Below are positions 1 through 5,625 of a stretch of 5,625 bases of DNA, in pieces. The stretch's first letter is position 1. Every line of letters begins with the position of its first letter. The position numbers and the translations under genes were made by a program. The stretch is from an uncultured Oscillospiraceae bacterium (GTDB lineage Bacteria; Bacillota; Clostridia; Oscillospirales; Oscillospiraceae), in the NCBI GenBank assembly GCA_934661715.1, contig CAKUJL010000107.1:1-5625 (forward strand), given 5' to 3'. The notes beneath the pieces are model-generated. The model ran no database searches and was not told where the DNA came from. It worked only from the letters and a program-made list of their open reading frames with translations.

Positions 1-268
1 TCGGGGTAATGGCGGTGACTTCGATGAACTTGCCGTCGGGCTTATCCTTCAGACGGTTCATGACCTTGATAAAGTCGATCTTCGGGGTCTTGCCGTAGGG
101 AATGATCTCTTCGGGCAGCAGGCCGAGCTTCTCGCGGAAGTAATCCACAGAGGGAAGGTTCTTCTCAGCTTCTTCAGCAATCTGCCAGTCCTTGTATTCC
201 GTCGGGTCCAGCGTGACACGACCGGTCTGGGGGTCTACGTACTTGCCATCCTTGAATTCGATTGCCAT
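1..268 (-). CDS. fhs: Formate--tetrahydrofolate ligase, N-terminal part (cut by window edge)
   Basis: ATP-dependent cytoplasmic enzyme that makes 10-formyl-tetrahydrofolate from formate and THF, the entry step of the methyl branch of the Wood-Ljungdahl pathway. I translated 89 residues by hand from the ATG at 266-268. From about residue 29 they follow the family N-terminus: an IAEEAE helix, EKLGL, a YGK segment, then KDKPDGKFIEVTAITP, which in Fhs leads directly into the ATP-binding P-loop (TPxGEGKT). The window ends just before that loop, so the catalytic part is not visible; family length is about 550-560 residues. The start is supported by AAGGAGG eight bases upstream, and there is no other Met until about residue 70. 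Residues 2-27 (EFKDGKYVDPQTG...) are an extension compared with the Moorella enzyme as I remember it. The gene has its own promoter and a leader of about 120 nt, and it lies downstream of the RACo unit on the same strand. The family call rests on a short but distinctive stretch. Confidence 0.9.
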   Translation of the reverse strand, partial: MAIEFKDGKYVDPQTGRVTLDPTEYKDWQIAEEAEKNLPSVDYFREKLGLLPEEIIPYGKTPKIDFIKVMNRLKDKPDGKFIEVTAITP

Positions 269-390
269 GGATATTTCCTCCTTGTTCTTCCGGGGCTCTT
301 CAACTCCCCGGGAAAGACTAGTTTAGCGCTGAGCATCCCTTCATCCGCAGCTTTCAGCGCCGCACGGAATCGATACTTTTTTATCGGTTC
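269..390 (-). promoter_or_regulatory. Structured 5' leader of fhs
   Basis: If transcription starts about 7 nt past the -10 box at 397-402, the fhs mRNA carries an untranslated leader of roughly 120 nt. Three local hairpins can be drawn: CGATA/TATCG at 382-386 with 371-375 (loop 6), GCGCTGA/TCAGCGC at 354-360 with 326-332 (21-nt interior), and CCGGGG/CCCCGG at 306-311 with 290-295 (loop 10). The last ends six bases before the Shine-Dalgarno site. No hairpin is followed by a U-run, so simple transcription attenuation is not evident. I did not recognise the conserved core of a ZTP (pfl) or THF riboswitch, the classes one would expect ahead of fhs. The leader is seen in sequence; any regulatory role is inference. 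Confidence 0.4.
277..283 (-). promoter_or_regulatory. Strong Shine-Dalgarno site of fhs
   Basis: The minus strand reads AAGGAGG followed by eight bases and then ATG. This is close to a perfect anti-16S match and decides the fhs start, supporting the N-terminal extension as translated. Confidence 0.85.
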
Positions 391-396
391 GTCCTT

Positions 397-425
397 AGCA
401 TATCACTATCTTTTTTGGAAGTCAA
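397..425 (-). promoter_or_regulatory. Sigma-70-type promoter for fhs
   Basis: On the minus strand TTGACT (420-425) and TATGCT (397-402) are separated by exactly 17 bp. The -35 box matches TTGACA at five of six positions and the -10 matches TATAAT at four of six, with an A-rich spacer. It lies downstream of the hairpin at 498-534 and upstream of fhs, in the right orientation. It gives fhs an independent transcription unit with a predicted start near 390. Confidence 0.7.
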
Positions 426-618: not shown

Positions 619-1584
619 TCAGTCCTTCGAAGCCGCCGCCTCGACCACCGTCACGGACGCGTGTGCCCGGACAAACGTGATGGCCTTTTTCATGCGGATG
701 TTGTCTTTGACGCTGGACTCAAACTGCGCGTTTAAGTAGGGCTTGAGCTGCTCCATGGTCATGCGGTTCTGCCGACAGATGGCAGAAAGCTCGTCTGCAA
801 CATCCTGCTCCGTCGCGGTAAGACCCTCCAGAAGGGCGATGCGCTCGGCGGATTTCTGGATGCGAAGGCTGTTTTCGGCCTCGGGCTTTGCGTCCTCGCG
901 GATCTGCTGCTCGGTCTGGCCGCTGAACTGAAGGTAGGCCTCCAGCGTCAGGCCCTTCTGGCCCAGCTGCGCCTTGAGAAGCTCCACCTGCGCGTCGACG
1001 CTTTCCTGAAGCTCCTTTTCCGTCGGCGTGTACTCGAGCGTCGCGGCGACCTGCCGCATGAGATTGTCCTGCACCTCGAGCTCGGCCTTCTCGTCGTAGT
1101 ACGCCTGTAAGCTTTCGCGAAGCTTTGTGCGCATTTCGGCAAGAGAAGCGCAGTTTCCGACCTCCTTGGCAAAGATATCATCCAGAGCATACTCGGCGCG
1201 TTCGCGAATCTCGACGATGTGGCACTTAAACTCCGCGGGCTTTCCGGCAAGCTCAGTCGCGCGGTAGTCCTCCGGGAAGGTCACGGTGACGAGGACGTCT
1301 CCGCCCGTCTCCGCGCCCACGAGCTGCTGCTCAAAGCCGGGGATGAACATGCCGCTGCCAAGCGTCAGAACCTGCTCTCTGGCTGTGCCGCCGTCAAACT
1401 GCTTGCCGTCCACAAAACCCGCGTAATCGAGCACGACCTGATCGCCCATCTGTGCGGCGCGGTCCTTGACGGGGACGATGCGCGGGGCCTGCTGGCGAAG
1501 CCGCTCCATCTGCCGCTCGAGCTCGTGGTCGGTCACGGTCAGCTTTTCAAAATTGGCCTTCAGGCCCTTATAAACAAAGCTCAT
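619..1584 (-). CDS. Trigger-factor-like peptidyl-prolyl isomerase/chaperone lacking the ribosome-binding domain
   Basis: The 321 residues correspond to the linker, FKBP-type isomerase domain and C-terminal chaperone domain of trigger factor. Residues 5-47 (YKGLKANFEKL...RIVPVKDRAAQMGD) match the segment just before the isomerase domain. The FKBP domain spans about 47-127, with VLDYAGFVDGKQFDGG, LGSGMFIPGFEQQL and VTFPEDYRATELAGKPAEFK. The helical SurA-like chaperone domain follows (about 133-310: LDDIFAKEVG, LTLEAYLQFSGQTEQQIRE, IRMKKAITFV). Normal trigger factor is about 430 residues; the missing part is the N-terminal ribosome-docking domain with its GFRxGK signature. This is not an edge or frameshift effect: the bases upstream encode the DUF3786 gene, and GAGGG at 1592-1596 lies 7 nt before the ATG. 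The stop of the previous gene is 10 bp away. It is likely a cytoplasmic folding helper acting after translation, possibly for proteins of this pathway; that client is inferred from position only. A full-length tig elsewhere in the genome is expected. Confidence 0.88.
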   Translation of the reverse strand: MSFVYKGLKANFEKLTVTDHELERQMERLRQQAPRIVPVKDRAAQMGDQVVLDYAGFVDGKQFDGGTAREQVLTLGSGMFIPGFEQQLVGAETGGDVLVTVTFPEDYRATELAGKPAEFKCHIVEIRERAEYALDDIFAKEVGNCASLAEMRTKLRESLQAYYDEKAELEVQDNLMRQVAATLEYTPTEKELQESVDAQVELLKAQLGQKGLTLEAYLQFSGQTEQQIREDAKPEAENSLRIQKSAERIALLEGLTATEQDVADELSAICRQNRMTMEQLKPYLNAQFESSVKDNIRMKKAITFVRAHASVTVVEAAASKD

Positions 1585-1591
1585 AGTTGTA

Positions 1592-1596
1592 CCCTC
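1592..1596 (-). promoter_or_regulatory. Shine-Dalgarno of the trigger-factor-like gene, overlapping the upstream stop codon
   Basis: Minus-strand GAGGG lies 7 nt before ATG (1582-1584) and overlaps the TGA stop (1595-1597) of the DUF3786 gene. The arrangement implies translational coupling, and it fixes the start at a point that leaves no room for a ribosome-binding domain. Confidence 0.75.
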
Positions 1597-2227
1597 AGAA
1601 ATTATTTTTGATGCTGGAGATCAGAATATCGCCCGCAACGACGCGGTCTTCGGCGGAAAAGCCGTCTTCAAAGTTGTCCGAGTACAGAACCTGGCTGCTC
1701 GGCGGGAACTCGTCGTCTCCGGCGTAGACCATGATCTGCATCCGGTAGCCGGGCAGGAACTCAAACTCGTAGCCCGCGTCGCCGTGCTCGACTCTGGCCG
1801 CGCCCATCTTCTCGCAGGCCTCGGCGAATTTGCCGACGCGCGTGCCGAAGGTGAAGGCGGCTCTGGTGAGAACGCGGCCTGTATACGGGCTGATATAGAG
1901 CTCGCCCCACGGCATTTCGCGGAAGGTCTTGAAGCTCAGCCAGCGCCCGGCACGTTTGCCGGACAGCAGGAAGCGCAGCATGAACGTCTGCGCGGGGATA
2001 TTCTTGAGGCCGAACGCCTTCGGGTTGTCCGCCGAAATGGTGTATTCCGGCCACGTGATCTGGTAGGTCTCGCCCAGAAGCGTCACGGAAAACGCGCCGT
2101 ATTCAAACGGGACGCCGCAGCGCTGCGCCGTTTCTTCGGGGTCGATGTCCCGGAAAAGGGACTCATAGTGCGCAAACGGGACCTCTTCCTTGTTGTTCTG
2201 TACGTCTTTTTTATTCAGCTCTGCCAT
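1595..2227 (-). CDS. DUF3786 domain protein of unknown function
   Basis: A soluble 210-residue protein whose pattern fits the uncharacterised DUF3786 family: a central FMLRFLLSGKRAGRWLSFKTF block (82-102), PWGELYISPYTGRVL (106-120), TFGTRVGKFAEACEKMGA (126-143), then LPGYRMQIMVYAGDDEFPPSSQVLYSDNF (158-186) and an acidic end region with EDRVVAGDIL (193-202). No signal peptide or membrane segment is apparent. Only two cysteines (37, 138) are present, so it carries no Fe-S motif of its own. The ATG at 2225-2227 is chosen because AGGAG lies 7 nt upstream; a longer reading from 2296 would overlap the RACo gene by over 60 bases and begins with an Arg/Ser/Cys-rich stretch typical of out-of-frame sequence. 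It lies 4 bp after RACo and 10 bp before the chaperone-like gene. The family name is from recognition of the pattern; biochemical function is unknown. Position suggests an accessory role in corrinoid or acetyl-CoA synthase function. Confidence 0.8.
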   Translation of the reverse strand: MAELNKKDVQNNKEEVPFAHYESLFRDIDPEETAQRCGVPFEYGAFSVTLLGETYQITWPEYTISADNPKAFGLKNIPAQTFMLRFLLSGKRAGRWLSFKTFREMPWGELYISPYTGRVLTRAAFTFGTRVGKFAEACEKMGAARVEHGDAGYEFEFLPGYRMQIMVYAGDDEFPPSSQVLYSDNFEDGFSAEDRVVAGDILISSIKNNF

Positions 2228-2231
2228 ATCC

Positions 2232-4163
2232 TCACTCCTGCACGCTCGACGGGAACAGCTCACGGTTCGTGTGCGGCAGGAAGCAGGCCGCGACAAATTC
2301 GTCCATGTACCGCGGATTCGTCGAAAGCTCCATATATGTCATGTTGGACGCGATCTCGCTTACCTTCTGGTTGGCGTTCTCCGAGCGGACCATCGCGTAA
2401 GCGCCCGCAAGAGAGGTGTTGCCGAGGTAGGTAAAGAGGCTGCGGTCAATATCCGGCAGCATACCGATCCGGACGGCATTTTCCATGTTGATGCCCGAGC
2501 CGATGCCGCCGGCGACATAGACGTGCTCGAGAACCGTCACGTCCATATCCAGACTCGACAGCATGATGTTGATGGCCGAGAAGATCGCGCCCTTGGCCCG
2601 GATGAACGAGTCGATATCGACCTCGGTGATCGAAATTTCGCGGCCCGTTTCGCTCTCGTCGGGTCTGGCGAGAATATACCGGCCCATGCCGTGCTCGTCG
2701 TGCGCCACACGGCCGCCCTCGCGGACAAACTTGCCCTTCGAGGAGATGATCGACGTGCGGTAGAGCTCGGCAATGACGTCGATGATGCCCGAGCCGCAGA
2801 TGCCGACAGGCTTCTGGCCTTCGTCGCCGACGATGGTGAGCTTCGGCTCCATGGAATCGCGGTCAATTTCGACCGCCTCGACCGCGCCGTCCGTTGCGCG
2901 CATACCGCAGGAAATGTCGCCGCCTTCAAACGCGGGGCCTGCCGAGCAGGCGCACGACATCATGAAGTCGCGGTTGCCGAAGACGAGCTCGCCGTTGGTG
3001 CCAAGGTCGATGAACAGGGAAAATTCGTCCTTGTTCCAGATCAGGCTTGCGAACGTGCCCGCGGTGATATCGCCGCCGACATACGAGCCGATGTTCGGCG
3101 CGACGAGCACCTCGGCGTCGGGGTTCGCAACAAAGCCAAGGTCCAGCGCCCGCATCCCGCGCCACTGGAAGAACGTCGGAATGTACGGCTCCATGCGCAC
3201 GGGGTTTGCGTCCACGCCGAGAAGCAGATGGTTCATCGTCGTGTTGGACGCGACAGCGGCGCGGAGGATCCTGTCTGCCGTGATGCCCGCGGATTTGCAC
3301 ATCACCGCCGTCAGGGGAACGAGCGTTTCTTTCAGGATCGCGTCCTGAAGCCGCTTCACGCCGCCGGGCTTCGACTGCTCGATGATGCGGTTGATGACGT
3401 CCGCGCCGTAGCGGATCTGTCCGTTGCCGGAGGACGCCTTCGCGACGACCTCGCCGGTTTCCAAATTCAGAAGCACACCCGTGACCGTCGTCGTGCCGAT
3501 GTCGATGGCGCAGCCGATCATGGGGGCGTCGAGCTTTCCGGTGACGTCCATGATCGTCAGAACGCCCATATCGAGCGTGCCCGCGATCTGCACCTTGAAA
3601 TTCGCCTCGCGGAGCGTTTTTGCAAGCTTCTTGACGGTGTGGTAGGTGAGCCTGACCTCCTCGCAGCCGTCAAACGCAGCCTGCGCGGCCAGCGCCAGCC
3701 GTTCGGTGTCGGGCATGGTGTCGACGAGTGTGGGCTCTTCCATCTCGACCACAGCCGAGACAAAGTCGCAGCTGATCTCGACGCCCGCTTCGCGGATATC
3801 CGCCTGCAATTTGTTGAACGTCGCGACCTCTTCGCCGGTCGAAAGATCCGCGGTCTTCATGCGGCTCTGATAGGCAGAGGCAATGTCCGGAACCTGCACA
3901 ACGACGTCGGACGCGGGCTTGCTTGCGCAGCTCAGACGCCAGCCTGCGGCGTATTCTTCCTCGGAAATATGGTGCGTGGGAGTGCTTTCGACGGTGCCCT
4001 CGAGAATTTTGACCCGGCACTTGCCGCACGAGCCGTTGCCGTTGCAGGGCGCGTCGATGGCGACGTTGGCAGCCTTCGCCGCGTCCAGAATCGTCGTGTT
4101 GGGCGTCACATCGACGATAACGGGCTTTCCGCCGTTTTCAAACTGAAATGTGATCTGGTACAT
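2232..4163 (-). CDS. acsV: Reductive activator of corrinoid iron-sulfur protein (RACo; Orf7 of acs clusters)
   Basis: Uses ATP hydrolysis to drive low-potential electron transfer that returns inactive Co(II) corrinoid to Co(I) in the corrinoid iron-sulfur protein AcsCD. The 643 residues show an N-terminal plant-type [2Fe-2S] ferredoxin domain (about 1-95) with C40, C46, C49 and C79 (Cx5Cx2Cx29C). A linker and middle region follow (about 100-210), then a C-terminal ASKHA ATPase domain (DUF4445-type): CAIDIGTTTVTGVLLNLETG (218-237, phosphate 1), SNTTMNHLLLG (306-316), IGSYVGGDITAGTF (358-371), FIDLGTNGELVFGN (384-397, phosphate 2), SAGPAFEGGDISCGMRA (407-423), VAGGIGSGINMENA (550-563, adenosine) and the family-typical C-terminus YMDEFVAACFLPHT. 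Length is about that of characterised RACo proteins. The start has AAAGGAGA about nine bases upstream. The gene follows acsB, as orf7 does in Moorella. Related activators of methyltransferase corrinoids (RamA type) are the alternative; the 2Fe-2S N-terminus and the acsB neighbour favour RACo. Confidence 0.92.
   Translation of the reverse strand: MYQITFQFENGGKPVIVDVTPNTTILDAAKAANVAIDAPCNGNGSCGKCRVKILEGTVESTPTHHISEEEYAAGWRLSCASKPASDVVVQVPDIASAYQSRMKTADLSTGEEVATFNKLQADIREAGVEISCDFVSAVVEMEEPTLVDTMPDTERLALAAQAAFDGCEEVRLTYHTVKKLAKTLREANFKVQIAGTLDMGVLTIMDVTGKLDAPMIGCAIDIGTTTVTGVLLNLETGEVVAKASSGNGQIRYGADVINRIIEQSKPGGVKRLQDAILKETLVPLTAVMCKSAGITADRILRAAVASNTTMNHLLLGVDANPVRMEPYIPTFFQWRGMRALDLGFVANPDAEVLVAPNIGSYVGGDITAGTFASLIWNKDEFSLFIDLGTNGELVFGNRDFMMSCACSAGPAFEGGDISCGMRATDGAVEAVEIDRDSMEPKLTIVGDEGQKPVGICGSGIIDVIAELYRTSIISSKGKFVREGGRVAHDEHGMGRYILARPDESETGREISITEVDIDSFIRAKGAIFSAINIMLSSLDMDVTVLEHVYVAGGIGSGINMENAVRIGMLPDIDRSLFTYLGNTSLAGAYAMVRSENANQKVSEIASNMTYMELSTNPRYMDEFVAACFLPHTNRELFPSSVQE
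2235..2239 (-). promoter_or_regulatory. Shine-Dalgarno of the DUF3786 gene inside the end of the RACo gene
   Basis: AGGAG is formed by the last two sense codons (CAG GAG) of the RACo gene, followed by its TGA and then ATG, with 7 nt spacing. This selects the ATG at 2227 over the upstream in-frame ATG at 2296 and suggests coupled translation. Confidence 0.75.
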
Positions 4164-4425: not shown

Positions 4426-5625
4426 TTACATCAGCGGCTCCATTGCAAGTACCGGATGATTCTTTTCCTGCAGGAACGTCATCAGGGCGTCGCAATCGGT
4501 GCAGATGGTCTCATCGGCGATCATGTCGGTGAAGTTGTCGATGCCATAGAGCTCCTTGGCGGTCTTGTTGAGCTTTTCGCCCACGTCGTCCTTGAGTTCC
4601 TTCGGCATCCAGACGATACGCTCGATACCGCCCTCGGCGTGGATGAACTTCTTCGACGAGATGAAGTGACGGCCATGGCCCATGTAGCCGGGGGTCTGTA
4701 CGCCGCCGCCGGTGCAGGAGGCCAGCTCGCCGAAGGTCATGCCGGCAGGCGTCATGCCCGCGTATTCGCGGTTGACGACGATAAAGCCGTTGGACATCGG
4801 CTCGATGCCGGAGATGCACTCGAAGCAGCCGCAGGAGGTCATCGGGTCTTCCATGATGGAGTACAGCGTGACCTCTTCGACCGCGCCGTGCGTTGCGTCC
4901 TTGATGGCCTCGTTGACGGTCGTGTAGCGGCCGGTGCGCTCGTCGAGGCAGCCTTCCTTCGAAATGGGCTGGGACGGGCCGTTCGGGTTGAGCTCATACG
5001 TCGCCTTCGCGTCGAGCCACGACACAGCGCCGCACAGGCCCAGACGTTCCGGCGTGACCACGCAGCAGTGTGCCGGCGCAAAGGACTGGCACAGGATGCA
5101 GGTGAAGAACCGGTCGACGGACTCGTCGGTCATGGAGGCCAGACGGTCGTCACGCATATTGTAGCGCGGGATGGCGACGTCGTTTAAGAAGGCGGTCGCC
5201 TTGACGGGGTCGGTGATGAGGTGCACTTCGCACTTGTCGACGACAGCTTCAAATTCGTCCGTGATCATGTGGTACAGAACCTCGGCGAAATGCGTCAGGC
5301 GCAGACCCTTTTCGAACGCTTCCTTGGAAATACGGATACGGAACTGGTTGCGCTGGCCGGTGTGCATGACGCCTTCCATGTAGTTGAACCACGCGTGGAT
5401 CTTCCGCTCGATGACAGACTCAAAGTCGGGCTGCATCTTCTTGCCCGCGACATAAATGCAGGTGGCAAGCGCGTACTCGAGATCGCCCGAGTCAATATCC
5501 GGGCCGTCGACGACGATCTTGTGGTCCTCGACCTCTTCCATGGGCTTGGACAGAACGAGCTCACAGGTGGTGTTCTTGGCAGACCAGAATTCGACCTGCA
5601 TATCGGCCTTGCGGATGATCTCGCC
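4426..5625 (-). CDS. acsB: CO-methylating acetyl-CoA synthase, C-terminal 399 residues (cut by window edge)
   Basis: Condenses a methyl group from the corrinoid protein, CO from CO dehydrogenase and CoA into acetyl-CoA. The reading frame stays open to the right edge (GEIIRKAD precedes the Met at 5601), so the N-terminal CODH-contacting domain, about 330 residues, lies outside. Counting from the Met at 5601, the A-cluster ligands are C168, C171, C180, C190, C257 and C259, in CILCQSFAPAHCCV, LGLCGA and MTSCGCFEC. Adding 338 gives exactly the Moorella ligands 506, 509, 518, 528, 595 and 597, and the total of 729 equals the Moorella length as I recall it. F174 corresponds to the Phe512 gate residue. 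Other family blocks are SMTDESVDRFFTC, TPERLGLCGAVSWLDAKATY, ELNPNGPSQPI, GMTFGELASCTGGGVQTPG, IVWMPKELK and the end HPVLAMEPLM. A methanogen-type CdhC is less likely, because the corresponding length and C-terminus match the bacterial enzyme. A strong terminator follows. Confidence 0.96.
   Translation of the reverse strand, partial: GEIIRKADMQVEFWSAKNTTCELVLSKPMEEVEDHKIVVDGPDIDSGDLEYALATCIYVAGKKMQPDFESVIERKIHAWFNYMEGVMHTGQRNQFRIRISKEAFEKGLRLTHFAEVLYHMITDEFEAVVDKCEVHLITDPVKATAFLNDVAIPRYNMRDDRLASMTDESVDRFFTCILCQSFAPAHCCVVTPERLGLCGAVSWLDAKATYELNPNGPSQPISKEGCLDERTGRYTTVNEAIKDATHGAVEEVTLYSIMEDPMTSCGCFECISGIEPMSNGFIVVNREYAGMTPAGMTFGELASCTGGGVQTPGYMGHGRHFISSKKFIHAEGGIERIVWMPKELKDDVGEKLNKTAKELYGIDNFTDMIADETICTDCDALMTFLQEKNHPVLAMEPLM

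Follow-up and report, generated by a model that had tools for sequence, protein, structure and literature searches.

The window examined here, a 5,625-nucleotide stretch of DNA from an uncultured Oscillospiraceae bacterium, encodes a trigger factor (TF) that lacks the ribosome-binding domain and belongs to a single clade of short TFs whose persistent neighbour is fhs, the gene for formate-tetrahydrofolate ligase. This ligase gene is the next gene downstream of the short TF in 59 of 68 loci, or 59 of the 65 that can be evaluated, because three of the nine loci without it end within 150 nucleotides or inside the TF. We tentatively propose, with somewhat less than even confidence, that the short TF works after translation, assisting the folding or assembly of those one-carbon (tetrahydrofolate) enzymes whose genes adjoin its own, and that Fhs is its most probable client. 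This reading is suggested by the fact that fhs stays in place while other neighbours change, and by the folate-state riboswitches present in many loci.

Profile searches and a structural match define a protein of 321 amino acids (positions 619..1584, minus strand). It carries an FKBP domain (PF00254, E 2e-16) followed by the C-terminal chaperone domain Trigger_C (PF05698, E 1.9e-23) and scores 246 bits against the Tig model TIGR00115 (cut-off 180), and Pfam returns no match in it to the ribosome-binding domain Trigger_N (PF05697). Its N terminus lies at the linker before the FKBP domain, in agreement with the structural match to 1w26 (22% identity). These searches bear out the original prediction, made from the sequence alone, that the protein begins at this linker and keeps the isomerase and chaperone domains without the ribosome-binding part. 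Given the known role of the missing ribosome dock, the short TF should be unable to serve as the usual nascent-chain chaperone. Residue F84 aligns with E. coli F198, a residue with a role in isomerase activity, and is phenylalanine in all 31 short and all 42 full-length rows. Residue C121 is cysteine in 31 of 31 short TFs and in 6 of 42 full-length TFs, the other 36 having valine, and 18 more alignment columns separate the two groups.

The gene is intact and conserved, which agrees with the earlier claim that it is a real gene rather than debris. Its Shine-Dalgarno sequence GAGGG (1592..1596, minus strand) overlaps the stop of the preceding DUF3786 gene, also as predicted. The start is of the same kind in 97 of 100 rows, 43 columns are invariant among 52 sequences, and 64 of the 68 loci have frames of 312–322 amino acids; of the other four, two are cut by contig ends, one (L014) is broken and one (L015) is flagged with a stop inside the match. 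In the main tree, from which L079, L091, P0028, P0059 and P0068 were left out, 31 short rows, including two long-branched distant ones, form one clade (support 100/99) apart from the full-length tig of these genomes, the full-length rows grouping at only 90/67. Of 50 short-TF genomes, 37 yielded a full-length tig, the nearest relative (G001) among them; this check took in 50 of the 68 loci, and the genomes in which no tig was found are drafts that may be incomplete. The expectations that short-TF genomes carry a second, complete TF elsewhere and that short homologues are not scattered at random were both supported.

A protein search yielded 113 proteins of 236–334 amino acids and seven of 431–512 amino acids among the best 120 of 7974 passing matches. 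The longer seven (P0030, P0031, P0035, P0046, P0053, P0055 and P0066) were considered as full-length versions at the short-TF locus and rejected, as their identical C-terminal stretches led us to read them as chimeras. P0028, P0059 and P0068, which share one common N-terminal part and differ in their C-terminal parts, also look chimeric. All ten are metagenome proteins and apparent assembly chimeras, with most junctions within the conserved FKBP region. The last three were left out of alignment A3 and are included in alignment A2, used for searches of the order, family and extended-Fhs genomes; alignment A1, used for the public-genome scan, includes the C-domain piece of P0028.

The short TF has a limited distribution. 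A public-genome scan with two peptide patterns, based on the best 80 of 141 candidates, recovered the 68 short-TF loci and 11 ordinary-length TFs from elsewhere. All 68 are titled Bacillota or its subgroups, mostly Oscillospiraceae with three Lachnospiraceae. Within these best 80 of 141 candidates no relatives were found outside this group, although a scan of this design may miss more distant short TFs. Of 297 genomes in the order to which the nearest genome belongs, 3 have a short-TF match of at least 480 bits among the matches listed, and all other listed matches score 298 bits or less with frames of at least 396 amino acids. The family sample contains a short TF in 11 of 300 genomes at E 1e-95; in two of these the copy is divergent (416 and 332 bits). 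Of all the short TFs, the most distant, that of G404, directly adjoins a CobW-type GTPase gene (L122, 1759–5430), with a URO-D-family gene nearby, and no fhs match occurs within the 14.5 kb fetched around it.

In the window, the short TF ends a row of minus-strand genes that is tightly spaced from acsV onward. The C-terminal part of acsB, encoding acetyl-CoA synthase, occupies 4426..5625 (PF19436 and PF03598); its NF040764 score is under the whole-protein cut-off, the gene being cut by the window edge. It is followed by acsV (2232..4163; NF040756, 904.5 bits, cut-off 800), which encodes the corrinoid activation protein RACo, and by the DUF3786 gene (1595..2227; PF12654, E 3.3e-49), whose start, read from sequence, is the ATG at 2227, 4 nucleotides past the acsV stop. 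Beyond the short TF, the minus strand carries the first 89 residues of Fhs (2..268; PF01268 and NF010032), 99% identical to the Fhs of locus L001.

The original prediction linked the short TF to RACo, DUF3786 and acs genes, and a table of neighbours for TFs of about 320 residues confirms that this linkage exists yet identifies fhs as the persistent neighbour. Specifically, acsV or DUF3786 lies upstream in 8 of 68 loci, and also in genome G422; at least 2.5 kb of upstream sequence is available in 59 of the 68 loci and less than 2.5 kb in the other 9. In three loci (L031, L066 and L067) an ECF-type transporter, of folate type by reading, and a folC-like ligase are inserted between acsV/DUF3786 and the TF. 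A quick tree with SH-aLRT support only, which left out L014 and labelled L024, L060 and L064 (downstream side cut) as fhs-linked, places nine acs-linked rows (the window, G422 and seven of the eight loci) as early branches and has no acs gene beside the TF in the 62 rows of its main clade. The acs linkage is thus probably an old arrangement that disappeared along the lineage leading to the main clade, whereas fhs stayed.

Simple gene calling assigns the next gene to the Fhs family in 54 of 62 loci and distributes the gene before the TF over 19 families and 7 singletons in 66 loci. Folate genes continue beyond fhs, with fchA in 14 of 16 loci that extend more than 900 nucleotides and folD in 13 of 15 that extend more than 2500 nucleotides; in L058 the TF and fhs are still paired although fchA and folD sit on the other side. 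Exceptions to the pair comprise the broken copy L014 and L015, which keep the acs side and lack fhs beside the TF, one close group (L041, L049 and L051), in which the next gene of L049 encodes a dCMP deaminase by Pfam, and L068, where an aldo-keto reductase (by reading) follows. Genomes G032 and G418 likewise have a short TF that does not adjoin fhs.

Many of the short TFs are preceded by riboswitches of the folate pathway. An Rfam search that took in 50 of the 68 loci placed a ZMP/ZTP riboswitch (RF01750) above the gathering score immediately before the TF in 18 of 45 loci and also in L124. In 24 of 68 loci a ZTP core motif lies no more than 230 nucleotides ahead of the TF, at 51–97 nucleotides in 22 of them and at 180 and 228 nucleotides in two. 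A model built from the 19 Rfam matches (18 loci and L124) recovers the same 24 loci and adds L117, and seven of the loci that it finds, L117 included, are outside its training set. Its 33 matches fall before the TF in 26 cases, elsewhere in the loci in five (four of these before a DUF1576-type gene) and are weak in two; none lies in 27 Fhs loci whose fetched sequence contains no TF. The THF riboswitch (RF01831) scores above gathering before the TF in L035, L039 and L040, three loci beyond the 24 with ZTP motifs, and before the transporter-folC-TF row in L031 and L066. The window itself contains no RF01750, RF01831 or other known RNA family according to Rfam, and the ZTP model gives no match before its TF. 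In L039, a Clostridiales-1 RNA (RF01699; 2125–2286, minus strand) occupies the gap between the short TF and fhs.

In the window, fhs is preceded by a sigma-70-like promoter site (TTGACT-N17-TATGCT; 397..425, minus strand), recognized by consensus match only, whose TTGAC is invariant in 15 of 15 aligned leaders, and by a conserved structured leader that we call R1 (269..388, minus strand). The R1 leader is about 120 nucleotides long, with 92.5% of cells paired and changes on both sides in 12 of 25 pairs. It exceeds every slide, and all 500 shuffles in four of five measures, the fifth being reached by 96 of 500; these comparisons lean in its favour because one alignment supplied both the structure and the test. 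Seven loci outside the training set match at E <1e-10 (L018, L022, L123, L124, L128, L129 and L130), and further examples include L001 10831–10951, L006 4055–4178 and L012 10460–10580. Rfam reports no match over the leader in the window, L006, L012, L124 or L128. Because L128 and L130 come from genomes without a short TF and carry R1 before fhs, the leader belongs to fhs; with its covarying helices, it is a candidate new cis-regulatory RNA. Also between the TF and fhs in the window is a strong inverted repeat at 499–533 (GAGCACCCGAG...CTCGGGTGCTC); it has no T-run after it on the minus strand and is retained in L001 with both arms changed.

Among 59 paired loci, the TF-fhs gap is shorter than 150 nucleotides in 40 and longer in 19. 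Sixteen of the long gaps hold the R1 leader; in the remaining three loci the TF is preceded by a ZTP or THF switch. The 40 short-gap loci include 21 with a ZTP motif and two with a THF switch (L035 and L040), leaving 17 in which neither was found; none of the 40 has a strong R1 match and one (L002) has a weak one (23.4 bits, E 0.011), uncounted, as was that of L117 (25.5 bits, E 0.0013). L018 has both its own fhs leader and a switch before the TF. A single switch may therefore serve the TF and fhs jointly, or else fhs has a leader of its own, as in the window.

PMC2864571 describes fhs as a known target of the pfl motif (ZTP riboswitch), and that paper and PMC7266159 describe ZTP riboswitches as signalling a shortage of 10-formyl-THF. 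If our model is correct, the FKBP and chaperone domains would handle chains that have left the ribosome complete or almost complete, as PceT reportedly does for the dehalogenase PceA, and a cell short of 10-formyl-THF, with high ZMP/ZTP, would raise the chaperone and Fhs together. In the window lineage, by contrast, the TF is the last gene of the acsV-DUF3786-TF row and fhs sits behind a promoter-like site and leader of its own, so the TF would there be produced together with acetyl-CoA synthase proteins too, which are possible clients above all in that lineage. A more specific version, which we regard as doubtful, is that a ribosome-free TF is dedicated to one client under an alarmone switch: ZTP would turn on the chaperone and its client Fhs from one message when 10-formyl-THF is short, and in lineages without the ZTP switch the R1 leader, as a new RNA class, would control fhs, possibly by sensing a metabolite of the same pathway.

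Genome content ties this lineage to acetyl-CoA synthase (ACS), although co-occurrence is not proof of function and every such count is weakened because related genomes are not independent. ACS (PF19436) is matched in 47 of 50 short-TF genomes versus 96 of 300 family genomes, a count in line with the reading in the earlier note; within the 300-genome sample the counts are 8 of 11 with a short TF versus 88 of 289 others, and one of the three misses (G004) has acsV adjoining the TF. The carriers are likely to be acetogens among Oscillospiraceae gut bacteria. Two or more ACS beta matches, often in two score classes of about 420 and 400 bits, occur in 36 of 50 short-TF genomes (for example, C11 and C3 in G001, and C25 and C16 in G032).

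The Fhs of this lineage (in the window and L128–L137) is extended at its N terminus by about 18 residues (MAI-F-DGKYVD), a segment that 26 other Fhs in the family sample lack. Of the 18 genomes with extended Fhs among the 300, 9 have the short TF, compared with none of the 26 with plain Fhs, seven Fhs fragments being left unjudged; of the other two short-TF genomes, G404 has no Fhs match at the cut-off used, and in G002 (L002) fhs is cut but still shows the extension. The nine remaining genomes with the same extended Fhs have a full-length tig only. The extension is thus not specific to the short TF, and its interpretation as a TF docking tag was rejected.

Several of these observations count against Fhs as the client: the nine extended-Fhs genomes with only a full-length tig, the TFs of G032, G418, L014 and L015 that are not beside fhs, the lack of a riboswitch before the window TF and the 17 short-gap loci without a found ZTP or THF switch. 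A need for a dedicated chaperone is not known for the Fhs of other bacteria. Moreover, the ACS co-occurrence fits an acs client equally well. The short TF might instead be a chaperone for the nickel or corrinoid proteins of acetyl-CoA synthase, its place beside fhs reflecting inherited regulation. The enzyme served by PceT is likewise a corrinoid enzyme. The tight acsV-DUF3786-TF spacing in the window, the early-branching acs-linked rows, the ACS counts, the presence of acs without fhs beside the TF in L014 and L015, and the precedent of PceT as a known dedicated TF (PMC8905343) are all consistent with this explanation. We nevertheless consider it unlikely, as the 62-row main clade has kept fhs without acs beside the TF, 88 of 96 ACS-positive family genomes have no short TF at E 1e-95, and ZTP and THF riboswitches respond to folate state rather than to corrinoid or metal. 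The original prediction of a dedicated chaperone for a Wood-Ljungdahl metalloprotein therefore stands in part: the protein is a second TF in ACS-bearing genomes, yet acs linkage was seen in only 8 of 68 loci. Apo-AcsB or the corrinoid protein is a possible client, less likely than Fhs because the fhs link persists and the RNA switches are one-carbon or folate ones.

TF-type binding domains are promiscuous, and the short TF could also be an all-purpose extra chaperone, serving many clients and tied to fhs only by a common promoter and switch, that adds folding capacity during Wood-Ljungdahl-dependent growth. Its intact PPIase residues and the varied genes before it accord with such a role, which we judge rather improbable given the persistence of the TF-fhs pair in 59 of 65 loci and the limited spread of the gene (11 of 300 family genomes and, among the matches listed, 3 of 297 in the order). 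A decaying tig copy or assembly artefact without function would explain the chimeric database proteins and the broken L014 copy, but is scarcely credible for a single clade with such uniform starts, invariant columns and frame lengths. Fhs as the client is what we infer; its linkage to the TF and the riboswitch matches are observed.

The nearest precedent for a helper of the kind that we propose is PceT/RdhT of Desulfitobacterium and Dehalobacter, a likeness by description rather than by sequence comparison. PceT, according to Maillard et al. in 2011, is reportedly without the ribosome-binding N-terminal domain, an absence that the window protein shares. PMC8905343 and PMC3306737 describe PceT/RdhT as a TF homologue whose gene lies in the same operon as that of its client and which serves a single anaerobic enzyme, a reductive dehalogenase; the short TF would by analogy also be of a dedicated type, encoded beside the gene of an anaerobic-pathway enzyme. 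The neighbours of the short TF differ, being fhs, acs (in early branches) and folate genes, with no dehalogenase-type gene among those named, and no twin-arginine (RR) pair was seen by eye in the Fhs N termini of 59 loci, three of them cut short. Canonical Tig (TIGR00115) has the same FKBP and C-terminal domains, and the short TF scores above its cut-off, but Tig retains the ribosome-binding domain and forms a separate clade within the same genomes. Plastid Tig2 is another truncated TF paralogue with a new task, although in the reverse sense, keeping only the ribosome-binding domain according to PMC11731035. The loci resemble the known ZMP/ZTP (pfl) regulon in having RF01750 upstream of a gene row with fhs, and differ in that the first gene behind the switch encodes a chaperone.

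Searches of the open-access literature found no paper naming trigger factor, ZTP and riboswitch together, and, judged by listings and passages, no paper on trigger factor with a Wood-Ljungdahl cluster or a formate-tetrahydrofolate ligase operon gives a description of the short-TF gene. If true, our proposal would add a case beside PceT of a TF turned from general ribosome chaperone to one-pathway helper, in this instance for carbon fixation by gut bacteria that are mostly uncultured, and would bring a folding factor into the ZTP regulon. It also makes a testable claim on the folding needs of Fhs or acetyl-CoA synthase that is relevant to transplanting the Wood-Ljungdahl pathway to other hosts.

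Beyond folD, four loci have a ZTP riboswitch directly before a membrane protein gene (L009 14605–14685, L025 14371–14451, L054 15677–15756 and L058 7797–7877). The protein is DUF1576 by Pfam in L058 and belongs to the same blast family in L009, L025 and L054; it may function as a transporter in the one-carbon or purine pathway.
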